Below are positions 8,006-17,178 of a stretch of 64,000 nucleotides of DNA, one piece after another. Made by a program: the position numbers and the translations under genes. Positions within the stretch are counted from its first letter, which is position 1; each line of letters starts with the position of its first letter. The DNA is from Bacteriovoracales bacterium (GTDB lineage Bacteria > Bdellovibrionota > Bacteriovoracia > Bacteriovoracales > Bacteriovoracaceae): assembly GCA_030149295.1 (NCBI GenBank), contig JASBRV010000135.1, positions 124,001 through 188,000 on the forward strand. The letters run 5' to 3'. A model generated the notes under the pieces. The model saw only the letters and a program-made list of their open reading frames with translations. It was not told the origin of the DNA and searched no databases.

Positions 8006-9196
8006 TTAAGCCCATCCTTTAAGCATTAGGTTCCAGTACATGCTGGGTAAAAGGTTTTTCTTAAGAATCCACATTGACCTTCGTGGTTGAGCCTGATCAA
8101 AGGGAAAGGTTTCTAAGATTTTTCCATCATAGCCAAACTCCGCCAAAATAACATGCCCTCGATCAACAACAAGAGGGCAGCTAGCATAGCCATCGTAGAG
8201 ATGGCTTGGCTTTTGGTTGGCAGAGAATTGGTACATATTTAGGGCACAAAGGGGTGCCTGTTTTCTGATGGCGGCTCCTGTCTTTGAACAGGGTAAGCTC
8301 GAGGCATCACCTATTGAAAAGATATTAGGAAATCTCTTGTGCTGCATTGTATGTTTATCGACTTCAACATAGCCAAGCTCATCACCCGTGGAAAGGGGAG
8401 AGCTTTTGATAAAATCAGGAGCGGACTGGTGTGGACTTACATGGATCATGTCGTAATTTATTTTTAATTCTTCACCAGTTTCCATATTTCTGGCAATGGC
8501 CACTTTATTCACTGAATCTATTTTGATGAGGTCGTGATGAAAAATGCCCTCAATGCCTCTTTCTTTCATTAGTTTTTCAAGCGAGGCTCTGTACTTTGGT
8601 ATTCCAAATATACCTCCACCTGCACTGAGAAATATGACTCTCGATTTTTCTCTGATTCCTTTTTGTCTAAAGGTCTCCTCTGCTAGCCACATGATCTTTT
8701 GAGGAGCTCCAGCACATTTGATGGGAGTACTAGGGAAGGTAAATATAGCGGTACCACCGGTAAAGCTATCAATCGTTTTCCACGTCTTTTCAGCTTGATG
8801 AAAGTCATAATTAGAACAGACTCCATTTTTGCCAAGAGTTTCCTCGAGGCCTTCAATTTTATTCCAATCTAGCTGAATTCCAGGAGCGACAAGGAGCATT
8901 TCATACTGAAGCTTTTTTCCATCTTGGAGAACAACCATATTATTTTCAGGATCAAACTCCTTTGCTTTGGTTTTTAGCCATTGAACGCCCTCGGGAATGA
9001 CACTGGCCATAGGACGAACAGTCTCTTCTTTTTTGGATACGCCTCCACCTACTAAGGTCCAAAGGGGCTGATAGTAGTGAACGTCAGATGGATCAATGAT
9101 CGCGATGTCTTCAGGGGAAAACTTTTTTAATAAAAGGGCGGCACCTGTAATACCAGCAGTGCCACCTCCTATGATAACGATCTTCTTTTTTTCCAT
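8006..9196 (-). CDS. sqr: Sulfide:quinone oxidoreductase, type II (mitochondrial-like)
   Basis: A 396-residue FAD enzyme. IIGGGTAG near the N-terminus is the FAD dinucleotide fold, and FSIGDASSLP is the second flavin-binding motif. Cysteines lie in GVCSNY, IKCAGAPQK and YASCPLV; the first two are the redox pair of type II SQR. The enzyme oxidises H2S at the membrane and passes electrons to quinone while forming persulfide. The gene is the last of a minus-strand series behind persulfide dioxygenase (29-base gap), the usual partner that removes the persulfide product. Confidence 0.88.
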   Translation of the reverse strand: MEKKKIVIIGGGTAGITGAALLLKKFSPEDIAIIDPSDVHYYQPLWTLVGGGVSKKEETVRPMASVIPEGVQWLKTKAKEFDPENNMVVLQDGKKLQYEMLLVAPGIQLDWNKIEGLEETLGKNGVCSNYDFHQAEKTWKTIDSFTGGTAIFTFPSTPIKCAGAPQKIMWLAEETFRQKGIREKSRVIFLSAGGGIFGIPKYRASLEKLMKERGIEGIFHHDLIKIDSVNKVAIARNMETGEELKINYDMIHVSPHQSAPDFIKSSPLSTGDELGYVEVDKHTMQHKRFPNIFSIGDASSLPCSKTGAAIRKQAPLCALNMYQFSANQKPSHLYDGYASCPLVVDRGHVILAEFGYDGKILETFPFDQAQPRRSMWILKKNLLPSMYWNLMLKGWA

Positions 9197-9225
9197 AAGT
9201 TTCTCTTTTTACGACTGTGAAATAT

Positions 9226-10077
9226 CTAAGATTTTAACCTTAAAGGTATCTTTAAGAAAGAGTCACCGCCCTTGCCAGGAAGCTTTCCTCCCCATGCGTT
9301 AAATTGAACACTTTGAAGAAGAAGTTGAGGTGCAGCAAGACTAGCATCTCGTGAATCTCTTCTGGTACAGAAGTCTTTTTCTTCAGTCCCCTCTTTGAAT
9401 TGGACATTCTCTCTTTTATGTAAACCTAACCTTGCGCGATCCCACACCATACGTCCGCCTGGCATATAGTCGTGGCCAGGATAAACGAGAATGGAGTCAT
9501 CAAGTTGATAGATCCTCTTAAGGGAGGAGTACATATCCTTTGAAGAACCACCAGGAAAGTCACAGCGGCCAGTGCCAAAATCAGGAGCGAAGAGTAGATC
9601 GCCTGTGAAAAGAGCTTCATCTTTAAAAAGATAACTCACGCACGCAGGTGTATGACCTGGTGTGGAAAGAACTTTAAATTTTAAGGTACCAGCGTTGACC
9701 TCTTCATTGTCCTTAAGTAAGCGATCAAAGCTTTGTCCTGCTGTCTCCTTTTCATTTTGAAAGAAGTCTTTGAATAGGGTTTGGACAGCTGTAATTTTCT
9801 CACCTATTGCGACTTTGGCTTGGGGAAAATTTTCTTGGATGAAAGCTGAGCCTGATAGATGGTCTGCATGGGCATGGGTTTCTAAGAGATAGTGGATGTT
9901 TAACTCAAGCTCTCTGACATAATCCATGACGAGTTCAGCGGATTTAGTTCCAATTGTTGAGCCTTTCGAATCATAGTCAAGAACACTATCAATAATGACG
10001 GCATCTTTGCTTTCTTGATCGTAGACGAGGTAGGTAAGAGTAAAGGTTGTTGGGTGAAAGAATGATTTAATTTGCAT
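9226..10077 (-). CDS. Persulfide dioxygenase (ETHE1/Blh type, metallo-beta-lactamase fold)
   Basis: A 283-residue MBL-fold protein. THAHADH (H68, H70, D72, H73) is the metal site, STPGHTPA supplies a further His, FTGDLLF the bridging Asp and YPGHDY the last His. The GTGRCDFPGGSS segment is characteristic of ETHE1-like persulfide dioxygenases, which use one Fe(II) and glutathione persulfide to make sulfite. GGAGAA before the ATG at 10077 decides the start over an ATG at 10113 that would overlap the upstream gene. Together with SQR, it forms a sulfide-detoxification pair; a glutathione synthetase gene occurs at 51.4 kb. Confidence 0.88.
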   Translation of the reverse strand: MQIKSFFHPTTFTLTYLVYDQESKDAVIIDSVLDYDSKGSTIGTKSAELVMDYVRELELNIHYLLETHAHADHLSGSAFIQENFPQAKVAIGEKITAVQTLFKDFFQNEKETAGQSFDRLLKDNEEVNAGTLKFKVLSTPGHTPACVSYLFKDEALFTGDLLFAPDFGTGRCDFPGGSSKDMYSSLKRIYQLDDSILVYPGHDYMPGGRMVWDRARLGLHKRENVQFKEGTEEKDFCTRRDSRDASLAAPQLLLQSVQFNAWGGKLPGKGGDSFLKIPLRLKS

Positions 10078-12395: not shown

Positions 12396-12869
12396 ATGAA
12401 CGCTGCTAAATCAATATTATTTTTATCCATGTTTTTCCCTTCTCTCTCATTTGCTCTAGAGGATTCACGTCCTCAATCGGAAGGAAAAGATCATCTTTTA
12501 GAGGTGACAATCGGCCAGATAAAGATCAAAGAAAGAGAAGTCTTTGAAGCTGGATTTGATTATGAATACTTTTTCCCTAATGCTGATCATCATTTTTCCT
12601 TAGGAGTAGCGAGTGAAATTGAGTTTTTGAGTGAAGATGAGTACTACTTAGGGCCTCTTTTTAGTCTTTATTACTTTCATTATAAGTTGTTCGTGACTTC
12701 GGGGCTTCAAACAAATTTTTCAGGAAAGACTTTTTGGAAAAATAGACTAGGCCTTGGCTATGAGATTTTTGTAACAGATTCTTTTATTTTGATTCCTGGA
12801 ATATCTGTCGACAGAAGTGAGGGGGAGTACCATCGGGCACTTACTGTTGGAGCTGCAATTGAGTTTTAA
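12396..12869 (+). CDS. Small exported beta-barrel-like protein
   Basis: A 157-residue protein with signal peptide (SILFLSMFFPSLSFA). The mature part alternates polar and aromatic residues in short strands (EAGFDYEYFF, YLGPLFSLYYFHYKLF, RALTVGAAIEF) and ends in phenylalanine, the usual C-terminal signal for outer-membrane insertion. It is likely a small outer-membrane barrel of about eight strands; no family is recognised. It is divergent from cytochrome c peroxidase and shares the FNR-like box region, so it may be expressed under low oxygen. The ribosome site is weak. Confidence 0.6.
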   Translation: MNAAKSILFLSMFFPSLSFALEDSRPQSEGKDHLLEVTIGQIKIKEREVFEAGFDYEYFFPNADHHFSLGVASEIEFLSEDEYYLGPLFSLYYFHYKLFVTSGLQTNFSGKTFWKNRLGLGYEIFVTDSFILIPGISVDRSEGEYHRALTVGAAIEF

Positions 12870-12881
12870 GAGAATGCCTTT

Positions 12882-14873
12882 TTAAATCCAGTGATAACTA
12901 GTACCCCAAGAACTCTTTGCTAGAGCAATCACTTCATTGACTAGAGAGTTTGGAACTGCAAATCCATCTCCTTCCTCAAAAGGATTGTAGTGATATGCAT
13001 AGAGTCGGGCAGCAAAGTGCTCAAAGGGAAGTGATGATTCTCCCATCTTTTCACCGTTTCCATGGACCGTGGGCTTAATTCCTTGCCCCCAGTTTTGACG
13101 GCCTTCATTATTGGGATTGAAAAAATAAACCCTCACTCCATCAGATTCAGGATGAATTGCAACTCTTTGAATGGAGACAGCATGAAGGCCAATAAGACTT
13201 CCGTGTGAATTGGTGATAAAAATACCCACAGGATTTGCATAAACCAAAGAAGATTCTTCCGCATAGTCTGGGTGATGAGTAGAGTAAAATCGACGAACAA
13301 AATTTTCGAAATCTCTGACGTATTTCTGTGTTATGTCTAAAACCGATTCAAAACCAAAGTTAACCATCCTGCCATACAGAGCAGGATTTACCCATTTATG
13401 AGGATCCTCTCCTCTTAATTGACACCTTCTAAGTATTTCTCCGTAAAGTGCATTGAGGTGTGGGGTAATAATAAGGGATACAGGGTCTAAGTCGGGATCA
13501 AAACTAATTTGATGAATATCAAAATAGTCGCTTGAATTGAGAAGTGCGCCTTCAAAATTAATTTGAACGACATCGTTTCTCGCAACAGTTGATAAAGTGT
13601 CTATAAGGTAGCCCGGATTATACTGACTCCAAAGACTTAGCGCGCGAGCTGCTTGGCAAGTTGGATTTTTTCCCTGACCTATACCAAGAGGCTGACCTAG
13701 TACGGAAATTAATCCACTAATGATGAAAGCATTAGGTGTAATACTGTCATTATATTTTCTTCTTTTGAGGAGTCTCTGTGCCACCGTTTCCGTGACGGAG
13801 ACTTCGACGAGCTTTTTAAAACCATTAAGTACGGAAGCCTGGCTAAAAAGGTGTCTTTCGAGAAAACAAGTGAGTCCATATAACGTATTTGAGGTAGAGG
13901 GGCGAATGGCCATCTTAATGATGTTATAAACCATTTCTTTATGCTCATTAAGATGAGCTTGACCAGATTCATTGAGTCCAAGGCAAAGTGCTACCATTTC
14001 TGGTTGGTGCCTTACTAGATGACGAATTAAAATAACTCCCCAGATATTTCCTAAGCCGGTTTCTCTTAGGAGAGCACCGACATTAAGTGCTTCTTTTTCA
14101 AGCTCCTGGGGACTTAATTTTTTTATAAGTTTTCTGTAATCAAGTGGATGTTCACACTCTTTTGATAGAGGAGTAGGGCCGAAAACAGATTTGAAAAAGG
14201 GAAACAAGGACTGATAAGACTTTTGATTCTTAAGCTTGGGGTTTTTATCGACAAGCTCTTGACCTGACTCGACTAGGGCCGAAATATGATCAGTCACAAT
14301 AGGTCTTTGATGAGCGAGTTCTACGACCTCTTTAGAATATTCAACAAAAAGGTCATCACTATCTATGCTTTCCACTAAGTTGCTAAGAAAACGTCGTGCA
14401 ACTTTTAATTGATTTTCATAGACTCGGTTCTCTTCAGTCACTGTATCAAAGAGAATATCCATATTGTGAGCTAAGACCTCTATCAAGAAGGTCTCAGCTT
14501 CTTCTTTTGTCATATGATGACTTGAGATTTTAGAGTTTACAATACAAAGCACGCGAAGATTACTCAGTATTTCGACATAAGGATATAGCGCTCCGGCTAA
14601 AAAGGTACCACGCACTAATTCAGGAAGTAACTTATCGACACGCTCCCATCCTCCTCCTTCAAAAAAACCGGCCTCTGTTATTTTTGGAGCAAGTCTTAAG
14701 AGATATTGAAAACCTTCAGGGGTCTTGTCGAGTTCTCTGACAAATTGAAGGATTCTCTCCTTAAATGTGTCTTTTTCTAAAGGAGAAGCCGACTGCAGAT
14801 CTTTTGCAGCTTGCAAAATTTTATCATATAAAATTCTTGAGGTTTCATTTTCTATTTTTTCAGGTGAAGACAT
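12882..14873 (-). CDS. Large protein with papain-like Cys-His-Asn C-terminal domain
   Basis: A 663-residue protein without signal peptide or membrane helix. Residues 1-380 are helical and resemble no family I know. Residues about 395-600 carry Q400 and C406 in GIGQGKNPTCQAARALSLW, H564 in LIGLHAVSI and N586 in VYFFNPNN: the order and spacing of a papain-like site (oxyanion Gln, nucleophile Cys, His, Asn). A peptidase, transglutaminase or amide ligase/amidase activity is therefore inferred. The ATG overlaps the ATP-grasp stop by one base (TAATG), so the two are translationally coupled and probably act on the same substrate. Confidence 0.6.
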   Translation of the reverse strand: MSSPEKIENETSRILYDKILQAAKDLQSASPLEKDTFKERILQFVRELDKTPEGFQYLLRLAPKITEAGFFEGGGWERVDKLLPELVRGTFLAGALYPYVEILSNLRVLCIVNSKISSHHMTKEEAETFLIEVLAHNMDILFDTVTEENRVYENQLKVARRFLSNLVESIDSDDLFVEYSKEVVELAHQRPIVTDHISALVESGQELVDKNPKLKNQKSYQSLFPFFKSVFGPTPLSKECEHPLDYRKLIKKLSPQELEKEALNVGALLRETGLGNIWGVILIRHLVRHQPEMVALCLGLNESGQAHLNEHKEMVYNIIKMAIRPSTSNTLYGLTCFLERHLFSQASVLNGFKKLVEVSVTETVAQRLLKRRKYNDSITPNAFIISGLISVLGQPLGIGQGKNPTCQAARALSLWSQYNPGYLIDTLSTVARNDVVQINFEGALLNSSDYFDIHQISFDPDLDPVSLIITPHLNALYGEILRRCQLRGEDPHKWVNPALYGRMVNFGFESVLDITQKYVRDFENFVRRFYSTHHPDYAEESSLVYANPVGIFITNSHGSLIGLHAVSIQRVAIHPESDGVRVYFFNPNNEGRQNWGQGIKPTVHGNGEKMGESSLPFEHFAARLYAYHYNPFEEGDGFAVPNSLVNEVIALAKSSWGTSYHWI

Positions 14874-16081
14874 TATTTATAGAAATCCTTCTTCTCGTAG
14901 TTAACGAGACGTTCACGCATTTCTTCAGCATTGTCACCATAGAAGAATACCGTTCCATAATGGTCTCCGAAGGCGACTCGCTCTGCAACCTTGGAGGTTG
15001 CAGGAGTGAAGAGGTTATGGTGGTCATAGTAGGGGTCAGCTAAGAGACCTTCCGGTAAATCCACATCTGAGACAACCTTAGATTTAGGATAAACCATTAA
15101 GCAGCCAGCATATCCCTTGTGATCCTCTTCCTTGGGAAAAAACTTATCAAGTTCTTCTTGAGATGTGTTTGGGTTAGTGCACAGAGCAAGGGCGACGTAA
15201 GGGTCAAAACCATAAACTTTTTGGATTAACTCAAACATATGCCCACCAGGCACCCGGGCAGCGACTTCTCCAAAACTAATTTTTCCATTGGAGGTGAGGA
15301 AGTATTCTGGATGAATCATTCCATATTCGATACCGAAGGCTTCAATGAGCTCTTCAACGGCAGAGCGAATCTTTTCTCTATTTTCATTTAGCTTTGGCGA
15401 GCATGGTATAAAGTTACTATGACCAAGTTTTACGTACTCTGTAACATTGAGGAATTGAATCTTTCCTTTGTGTATAAAAACCTCACAACTAAATTCTTGC
15501 CCGTCTAAATGACTTTCTAATAAGCAGGGAAATTCCTCTTCTTCTATTTCCTTAACATCGTCTTCCGATTTTATGAGACGGTGACCCTTACAGCCAGCGG
15601 CGTCGAGAGGTTTGAGGTGAACGGGAAAGTGTTCCTCTTCTTTAAGTTTTAATAATGCTTCATTTACGCGATTGAGAAATTTTAAAACACTTTCTTTGTT
15701 GTCGGCTTCTTCAAAAACTCCGACCTTAATCCCTGCCATTTGTGCCTTTCTTTTCATCATCGCTTTATTCCTAAAGAGGTAGTAGCGATTAAAAAGACGA
15801 GGATCATCTCGAAAATGACTATTAAGAAAGCCTGCCCATTCCACTGTCTCTTCAAACAAAGGAAGAGCACAATTGACACCCATTTGTTGCAGGTCTTTTA
15901 CGATATTTACTGATTGCTCATTGAGCTTTCCAAAATTCCAAGCATAGTGGGGAATGCCTTTTTCTTCCATGTAGCTTGAAAAGTCGGAGGGGACAACACC
16001 GACGAAGTCTATGCCTGCTTTTTCTAGAGAGGAAAAGGCTTGAATGCTAAAGCCGAGTACGGCCATCTTTTGGTTGTCCAT
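14873..16081 (-). CDS. ATP-grasp ligase
   Basis: A 402-residue ATP-grasp enzyme, the family that joins a carboxylate to an amine or thiol through an acyl phosphate. An N-terminal pre-ATP-grasp domain begins MAVLGFSIQAF; HLKPLDAAGCKGHRL holds the nucleotide-binding Lys and glycine loop; FGEVAARVPGGH is the metal/substrate-binding segment found in the carbamoyl-phosphate-synthase-like branch. GAGGAG six bases before the ATG sets the start. The substrate is unknown. It overlaps the papain-like gene, and an 89-base gap separates it from the ClpP-like gene upstream. ATP-grasp/papain-like pairs are described as peptide-tagging or amide-bond systems (Iyer and colleagues on amidoligases). Confidence 0.82.
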   Translation of the reverse strand: MDNQKMAVLGFSIQAFSSLEKAGIDFVGVVPSDFSSYMEEKGIPHYAWNFGKLNEQSVNIVKDLQQMGVNCALPLFEETVEWAGFLNSHFRDDPRLFNRYYLFRNKAMMKRKAQMAGIKVGVFEEADNKESVLKFLNRVNEALLKLKEEEHFPVHLKPLDAAGCKGHRLIKSEDDVKEIEEEEFPCLLESHLDGQEFSCEVFIHKGKIQFLNVTEYVKLGHSNFIPCSPKLNENREKIRSAVEELIEAFGIEYGMIHPEYFLTSNGKISFGEVAARVPGGHMFELIQKVYGFDPYVALALCTNPNTSQEELDKFFPKEEDHKGYAGCLMVYPKSKVVSDVDLPEGLLADPYYDHHNLFTPATSKVAERVAFGDHYGTVFFYGDNAEEMRERLVNYEKKDFYK

Positions 16082-16170
16082 ATTGGGCTCCTCTGATTGA
16101 TGGTTGTGAGCCCGATTGTTACATACTTGTCAGATTATTTTTACCTTTCGACAAACTTTCCGTTTATTTT

Positions 16171-16866
16171 TTAGGGATGTCTAAAGAAGGCTTGAAGAAA
16201 TGCTCTCTCATTTCTCTCAAGTTTATGAGAAAGCTCCTTAGCAAAGCCAGTATCTAAGAGCTCTTGACTGTGTATTTTGTAAAGCGCATTGTTCGGTTGT
16301 TTGAAAAACCTTCTTCGGTTTTTCATAACATAGGCTTTATTAACTCCTTCAAACTCAGAGAAGTAACGTGCCATACTTCTGGTGCTTTGAACGGGAATAC
16401 GCCTGCCAAAAAATTTCACAAGAGTTCTATGCACACCTAGGTTGATAAGGGGATCATCGCCGGCGATTCTATTTTCTCCTTTAAGAAAAAGAGTGGTGCA
16501 CATAGAGGAGCATCGGCCATCGAGATAGGTCGTTAAACTCTTTTTCCCTTTTTTAGTAATAAGGGTGTTGATGAAGGACTTATGTTTTTGAACGGAGCCT
16601 CCTCCTCCATAGCGAATATAAAGGTGGATTTCTTTATTGCTTTTCACTTGCTTGAGAAACTTTTCAACTGGGTCAAAGTTTATGTCGCTGAGAGTTCCGT
16701 ACCAAGTAATGAGCTCTTGAGTCTTATTCCTATAGAGTCTCAAAGCCAAATATTCGTTTTCTTGCTTTAAAGAAACTTCCTCGACCAAACTCATACCTCG
16801 GGCATCAAATGATAGGGCATAAAAAGAGAGTAAGAAGATAAAGCATTGTTTCGAGGGTTTAATCAT
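16171..16866 (-). CDS. Periplasmic ClpP-fold (COG3904-like) protein
   Basis: A 231-residue exported protein; residues 1-24 are a signal peptide. YGGGGSV (about 86-92), RCSSMCTTLFLKG (S121 at the nucleophile position) and LGVHR (H146) follow the ClpP/crotonase layout of oxyanion glycines, Ser and His seen in the predicted periplasmic COG3904 family. Whether it is an active peptidase is unproven. The start at 16866 is chosen because the signal peptide begins there; an earlier ATG at 16962 adds an unlikely extension. It is transcribed towards the ATP-grasp and papain-like genes and could be the first gene of that unit. Confidence 0.65.
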   Translation of the reverse strand: MIKPSKQCFIFLLSFYALSFDARGMSLVEEVSLKQENEYLALRLYRNKTQELITWYGTLSDINFDPVEKFLKQVKSNKEIHLYIRYGGGGSVQKHKSFINTLITKKGKKSLTTYLDGRCSSMCTTLFLKGENRIAGDDPLINLGVHRTLVKFFGRRIPVQSTRSMARYFSEFEGVNKAYVMKNRRRFFKQPNNALYKIHSQELLDTGFAKELSHKLERNERAFLQAFFRHP

Positions 16867-17178
16867 AGGGTTCTCTTTTAGTGGGGTTTTAGTGAGGCTA
16901 ATATAAGGGAAAAGGGGATTGTGTGGTGCGCAAGCTGAAGAATTTACAGGCTTTCTATCCAATGGAGTTCACATAAACGATAGTTTCTTCAAGATTTTCC
17001 CTTTCAGTGGCAAGTGTGCGGGGTTGGATTAATGGCTAAGTTTATTGAGAATATTATTATCCAGAAATCATTAGAGATAGGTCGCCTCATTGTGATGGGA
17101 AGTAGCCTGATTTCATGTTCATCAAATTCCTTAAAAAGGGCCGTGCCTAACTTTGCTAAGTCCTCGGAAAGGCGTACC

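Follow-up and report, generated by a model that had tools for sequence, protein, structure and literature searches.

What would a bacterium do with an ATP-grasp ligase whose gene runs straight into that of a large, apparently papain-like protein? The question is raised by a 64,000-nucleotide stretch of a Bacteriovoracales contig (JASBRV010000135.1, positions 124,001 to 188,000; the whole stretch is called the window below), in which the gene for a 402-residue ATP-grasp enzyme, hereafter the ligase, is followed on the minus strand by that for a 663-residue protein to which we give the working name PAP. An initial annotation, made from the letters alone, had proposed that the two frames share a base (TAATG), that Q400, C406, H564 and N586 of PAP stand in papain-like order behind some 390 helical residues, and that a ligase and a cysteine enzyme so joined form an undescribed amide-bond or peptide-tagging system. 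The shared base and the four residues are where that annotation placed them, and the pair is real and conserved. Within the open papers and libraries that were searched it is also undescribed: no description of such a ligase/PAP pair was found by title or abstract start in the open PMC literature, a search that leaves subscription papers mostly uncovered, and PAP has no family model in Pfam, NCBIfam or PADLOC. Our proposal, to which we give about an even chance, is that the pair is a cytoplasmic small-molecule amide system, in which the ligase makes an amide and PAP cleaves or transfers it, the amine coming from the ornithine/arginine/polyamine branch.

How strictly are the two genes kept together? 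Relatives were sought in 84,980 species genomes in one scan, which gave 141, and the best 80 loci of the 141 were analysed; their record titles bear 11 phylum labels, several of which are single bins and one archaeal. The ligase gene lies upstream of the PAP gene on the same strand in 65 of the 80 loci and in another arrangement within the locus in 5. It is not in the locus in the other 10; a genome search locates it elsewhere in 7 of these, and in the remaining three (L025, L042 and L071) the PAP match starts at most 30 nt from a contig end. Moreover, in three groups of genomes the two genes had exactly the same hosts, namely 2/368 genomes of Bdellovibrionota, 4/241 of the order of a Cyclobacterium and 102/120 of the genus of Marinobacter salarius. 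Among these 729 genomes, which are related and not independent, 108 carry both genes, 621 carry neither and none carries only one. The distances between ligases and between PAPs also co-vary (Mantel r 0.917 over 49 genomes, a value reached in none of 2000 permutations). The pairing is strict. Search thresholds may conceal distant copies of either gene, and the query matters: the window PAP found the 4/241 genomes just mentioned, and a Cyclobacterium PAP found 45 of 196 genomes of its own family, a draw searched with PAP only, outside the co-occurrence count and not directly comparable with the other. Relatives do not generally share the one-base overlap: as annotated, their two genes lie anywhere from overlapping to more than 100 nt apart, and the aligned parts of ligase and PAP are separated by 7 to 784 nt (median 114).

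The active-site residues proposed for PAP are conserved too. In an alignment of 57 PAPs (that of the window and those of 56 of the 80 loci; 24 truncated or near-duplicate loci were omitted at our choice, together with the second copies of L005 and L081), Q400, C406, H564 and N586 are invariant in every row, and they form the ordered pattern of Q, C, H and N found in clan CA papain-like enzymes. C406 is the only invariant one of the six cysteines of PAP, and 37 of the 48 invariant columns fall in residues 391-663. The four residues are kept in all 14 full-length Marinobacter paralogs checked, the fifteenth Marinobacter row being a 338-residue frame that lacks this part, and by eye also in the second copies of L005 and L081. 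The distance of six residues between Q400 and C406 matches that between Q19 and C25 of papain. We did not count the spaced pattern by itself as evidence, since of 5000 shuffled versions of PAP 443 contain a loosely spaced Q-x5-C ... H[AGS] ... N motif; it is because the residues are invariant across the aligned PAPs that we take them to be more than chance. In the AlphaFold model of PAP (mean pLDDT 90.6, pTM 0.88) there are only helices up to residue 393. After it, helix 406-418 begins at C406, strand 560-573 contains H564 and strand 580-585 ends just before N586, so that the predicted order of elements is papain-like. The initial annotation had staked its reading on the conservation of these residues and of the pair, and both are kept.

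By sequence, PAP has no significant match among the families compared. The window protein has no match in Pfam or NCBIfam up to E 1 nor in PADLOC up to E 0.1, and its single match among PDB sequences, at E 0.5, is not significant. When the 57 PAPs were scanned individually against Pfam, they gave scattered weak matches to 34 families (the commonest in 3/57, best E 0.0013); CHAP, BtrH and phytochelatin synthase are absent from the 25 of these families that were listed, and the window PAP itself has no CHAP match. The 57-row profile found nothing better than E 1.9 in the PDB. PAP is probably a papain-like enzyme of a new family, rather than a demonstrated papain-like enzyme.

The ligase is easier to place. 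It carries PF13535 (E 8.9e-10, above the Pfam cut-off), and its model (pLDDT 91.3) has an ATP-grasp fold whose nearest structures are L-amino acid ligases. Foldseek ranks RizA (4wd3) first, BL00235 (3vot) second and third, and YwfE/BacD (3wnz/3vmm) sixth to eighth; a purine-type ligase and a carboxylase rank between these two sets, and further enzymes of both types rank behind the L-amino acid ligases. Moreover, the 49-row ligase profile finds RizA in the PDB at E 1.9e-10. E259, E272 and R276, which we take to be metal or phosphate ligands, are invariant in the 49 rows; E272 and R276 align with the GEIAMR stretch of RizA and E259 with the glutamate of its HLE stretch. NCBIfam gave partial matches, none of them above cut-off, among which are dapdiamide A synthase and PylC. 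Judged from sequence and model, the ligase has its nearest relatives in RizA, BL00235 and BacD, L-amino acid ligases that act on small molecules, and shares their fold and motif region. It differs from them in sequence, with 16-18% identity in the Foldseek alignments; they are not known to act with a papain-like partner.

Which genes accompany the pair? Clustering of the neighbours in the 80 loci and in the window genome's own locus showed that few genes recur across phyla. Those that do recur are metabolic: genes for alanine racemase and for the synthesis of ornithine and arginine, joined in Marinobacter by putrescine genes. An alanine racemase gene lies directly 3' of PAP in 48/80 loci, 46 of them from Bacteroidota, Balneolota or Rhodothermota. 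The one copy tested passes the alr equivalog cut-off, and it is an extra enzyme: two further Alr matches per genome were found in 8/8 genomes examined, one of them in 6/8 within an open frame of more than 800 residues, a length that would suit a MurF-Alr fusion. Arginine genes occur in 18/80 loci, in Nitrospirota, in Planctomycetota and in three arrangements in Bacteroidota. They comprise argG in four Nitrospirota loci, argC-B-D-J with GNAT genes in L013, a planctomycete, argB-D-C-J, whole or in part, which follows the trio of ligase, PAP and racemase in Marinoscillum and L030 but precedes it in L053, argD-C-G next to the trio in seven Cyclobacterium, and argC in L004; L018 has proA upstream as well. 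These names were first given by eye. In an NCBIfam check of ten of the genes nine were above the curated cut-off, the argB of L013 giving no match at E 1e-60; beyond these ten, names were carried through the clustering. For comparison within the same loci, 126 of the 158 other nearest neighbours were scanned with Pfam, and no family turned up in more than three of them.

The putrescine link comes from paralogs. Marinobacter genomes have up to five PAP matches each, among which we picked by frame length a group of about 650 residues, and seven of its loci were fetched. This PAP stands beside putrescine genes in 5/7. In L156, L157, L159 and L160 it adjoins a PotF-like gene, with PotG/H/I-like genes of a putrescine transporter where checked, and in L157 the first possible PAP start codon is 3 bases past the potI stop. 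In L149 the neighbours have gamma-glutamylputrescine synthetase, PuuC and L-pipecolate oxidase as their best NCBIfam matches. Against TIGR01187, a broader polyamine-transporter model, the PotG-like protein scores above cut-off.

An amino acid ligase and an invariant cysteine enzyme that the paired genome searches never found apart, with ornithine/arginine/polyamine genes and an extra racemase as neighbours, suggest that a small-molecule amide is first made and afterwards cleaved or handed on. In the scheme we propose, the ATP-grasp enzyme would use ATP to activate an amino acid or short peptide at its carboxyl group and join it to an amine, most likely one from the ornithine/arginine/polyamine branch. 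PAP, with C406, H564 and N586 as catalytic residues and Q400 in the oxyanion hole, would cleave or transfer the same kind of amide bond, and its large helical part would probably recognise the substrate or regulate activity. In the Bacteroidota-Balneolota-Rhodothermota branch, the extra alanine racemase may supply D-alanine as substrate or product. We infer the catalysis, whether hydrolysis or transfer, its direction, every substrate, the cytoplasmic location and the physiological role of the pair from these observations.

Glutathionylspermidine synthetase/amidase, an ATP-grasp-type ligase fused to a CHAP papain-like amidase, offers the best parallel. There too a ligase and a papain-like cysteine amidase make and break one amide, and the polyamine substrate resembles the arginine and putrescine context of the pair. 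The pair differs from it in having two genes, a ligase of the L-amino acid ligase type, about 390 extra helical residues and a PAP without CHAP match. CHAP proteins include glutathionylspermidine synthetase/amidase, according to an excerpt of PMC10318531. The best reading by analogy is that the pair may work like that system, with the same make-and-break logic built from unrelated parts, and not that it belongs to the same family. Other systems share single features. The NAGGN osmolyte operon encodes a GNAT/ATP-grasp protein, an amidotransferase and a peptidase; it resembles the pair as a conserved small operon with ATP-grasp and peptidase parts, and a GNAT-type gene precedes the pair in 6 loci (Pfam checked for one). 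However, the enzymes are different, and no amidotransferase was seen recurring among the neighbours of the pair. In the fungal E-64 pathway, an ATP-grasp enzyme takes part in a route that ends in amides of putrescine, cadaverine or agmatine, the amine being added there, in contrast to the role proposed for the pair, by another enzyme (excerpt of PMC12568646).

Several observations weigh against this proposal. Although the order of elements in the PAP model is papain-like, the whole chain has no Foldseek match in the PDB at E 0.001. Papain-like structures appear among the weak matches (staphopain 1cv8 at probability 0.35, a pandoravirus papain-like peptidase at 0.21, TDE0362 9mdk at 0.16), ranked below many helical-repeat proteins. 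The C-terminal part of PAP gave no significant hhalign alignment with same-phylum profiles of C1 (23 rows) or C39_2 peptidases (17 rows used of 18 asked, frames being picked automatically; L123 was lost and L139, plainly in a wrong frame, was kept in), the only piece of C1 aligned being the stretch around H564; no significant similarity to a known papain-like family was found in Pfam, NCBIfam, the PDB or these two profiles. No arginine, alr or polyamine gene was recognised beside the window's own pair. Arginine genes are absent from the available stretch in 62/80 loci, and the figure of 18/80 stands without a background rate. Outside Bacteroidota, Balneolota and Rhodothermota, the racemase is seen in one labelled locus only, whose bin is probably mislabelled. 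The Marinobacter PAPs of about 650 residues have no ligase beside them, two of their seven loci (L155 and L158) have neither Pot- nor Puu-like genes in the stretch, and the Pot/Puu-like matches for the most part score under the curated cut-offs of their best families. The putrescine linkage probably represents one ancestral position in one genus.

Of the initial annotation, the claims on pairing and active site hold up; its tagging reading finds no support. In that reading the ligase would add an amino acid to a protein and PAP would take it off again. The combination of a ligase with a cysteine protease is known from tagging systems, and the helical part of PAP weakly matches helical-repeat proteins, which often bind proteins. 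However, the nearest ligase structures include free amino acid ligases, with no protein-tagging ligase among the 50 structures listed. No acceptor gene recurs across phyla beside the pair, either among 612 reading frames of 25-110 residues within 1.5 kb in 72 loci or among neighbour frames of at least 70 residues, and the neighbours are metabolic; we consider tagging unlikely. In six Nitrospirota loci (L006, L007, L009, L010, L011 and L042), and in this phylum only, a conserved protein of about 90 residues lies between PAP and a sodium:dicarboxylate symporter gene; the one copy scanned has no Pfam match. A role in cell-wall or D-amino-acid metabolism, where the ligase would produce a dipeptide of D-alanine that serves or attacks the envelope and PAP would trim it, appears equally improbable. 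The racemase directly after PAP and its two further genomic copies speak for it. So do two genes that score below cut-offs, one in L017 that resembles ThiO/D-amino-acid dehydrogenase and one in L061 that resembles 3-hydroxy-D-aspartate aldolase. However, no murein gene was seen recurring among the neighbours of the pair, loci with most of the other phylum labels lack the racemase, and the arginine and putrescine links would be left unexplained.

More serious, though we still hold it distinctly less probable than our proposal, is the idea that PAP is itself biosynthetic, an acyltransferase or transpeptidase that would take the ligase's dipeptide one step on; the product, perhaps an osmolyte, would serve bacteria of salty habitats as a soluble metabolite for stress or storage. 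In butirosin synthesis, too, an ATP-grasp ligase takes part. The excerpt of PMC10318531 lists BtrH and phytochelatin synthase as papain-like enzymes of transferase type, with a cysteine papain-like fold that acts on small molecules as PAP may do; the window PAP differs from them in having no Pfam match at all. The two genes were never found apart in 729 genomes, a strictness that a removal enzyme would need less, and they are near-core in Marinobacter. Bacteria of the sea, of soda lakes or of halophilic habit appear in many of the 80 record titles (uncounted and without a habitat baseline), and single loci have the pair near an mnhE gene, a mechanosensitive-channel gene or, by eye, a potassium-channel-like gene. 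On the other hand, Peribacillus kribbensis, a soil bacterium, carries the pair, and salt-related neighbours are few, no family occurring in more than 3 of the 126 neighbours scanned. A defence or toxin-antitoxin module is by far the least probable reading. It could draw on the patchy distribution in Bdellovibrionota and on the PAP tree. Rows of that tree group mostly by phylum, but the cluster that holds the window PAP and that of its Bacteriovoracaceae relative is mixed, with members from Nitrospirota, Planctomycetota, Bacillota, Eisenbacteria and an archaeal bin, and the Oligoflexia relative falls among Bacteroidota, a pattern consistent with transfer between phyla. However, PAP has no PADLOC match, no relative was found in phage or viral-contig collections, PAP is near-core in Marinobacter with up to five matches per genome, and the neighbours are metabolic.

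Table. Features of the ligase/PAP locus, in window coordinates
Feature	Position	Strand	Basis
ATP-grasp ligase, upstream gene of the pair, 402 aa	14873..16081	-	ORF; Pfam PF13535 E 8.9e-10 (above cut-off); model; 49-row alignment
PAP, 663 aa; helical about 1-393, papain-like about 394-663 (predicted)	12882..14873	-	ORF; model pLDDT 90.6, pTM 0.88
Shared base of ligase stop TAA and PAP start ATG, read TAATG	14873..14873	-	sequence
C406 codon, putative nucleophile, at helix start	13656..13658	-	invariance; model helix 406-418
Q400 codon, putative oxyanion-hole residue, 6 residues ahead of C406	13674..13676	-	invariant 57/57
H564 codon, putative catalytic histidine (GLHAVS)	13182..13184	-	invariant 57/57; inside strand 560-573
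N586 codon, putative third residue (FFNPNN)	13116..13118	-	invariant 57/57; straight after strand 580-585
Shine-Dalgarno-like AGAGGAG ahead of ligase start	16088..16094	-	by eye

A sigma-70 consensus scan of 12700-17100 gave no promoter-like site ahead of the ligase start. Upstream of the ligase, on the same strand, 16171-16962 encodes a 263-residue protein with a TTG start and a weak ClpP-type Pfam match (E 0.012, below cut-off); we rejected it as a member of the system, tblastn finding no relative in the 80 loci. An apparent fusion in L016 (a frame of 992 residues) was also rejected, the frame being merely open upstream and the ligase and PAP matches lying in different frames. Peribacillus kribbensis (L005) and a gammaproteobacterial bin (L081) have tandem PAP genes with one ligase per locus. 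The bin label of L030, titled Rickettsiales, is probably wrong, because its PAP groups with those of Marinoscillum and its neighbours are similar. In the M. salarius locus L147, the PAP beside the ligase (9042-10058, plus strand) is the 338-residue frame, about half the usual length; full-length counterparts exist in other Marinobacter genomes. A malate:quinone oxidoreductase-type gene lies near ligase or PAP in L147, L148, L150 and L153, at two different genomic positions; the L150 copy was identified by NCBIfam and the others as its blastp relatives. In Marinoscillum (L018, L023 and L032; cluster c28), a conserved protein of 272-280 residues, without an above-cut-off Pfam match in the one copy scanned, follows straight after the racemase. 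In Natronospira (L063, 7966-13909, plus strand), the gene for an mnhE-type Na+/H+ antiporter subunit starts 30 nt after PAP, and further genes on that strand look by eye like parts of the same antiporter.

Its 48 invariant columns in a diverse alignment of 57 rows, its occurrence under 11 phylum labels and in 102/120 genomes of Marinobacter, and the company of the ligase in each PAP-bearing genome of the paired searches mean that PAP must do something specific, and yet it represents a family without a model in the three libraries searched and without a relative found among solved structures. More tentatively, the pair may reveal a widespread and undescribed amide metabolism, in which an ornithine- or polyamine-derived amide would be built and remodelled in many phyla, with D-alanine in one branch, by a ligase and a new papain-like family with a helical domain; the Marinobacter variant would then be a hydrolase or transferase of putrescine uptake and catabolism. 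Because the two genes depend so strictly on each other, what they do can be tested directly in marine bacteria that are culturable and non-pathogenic; their likely product would belong to a class of metabolite that has not been looked for so far.

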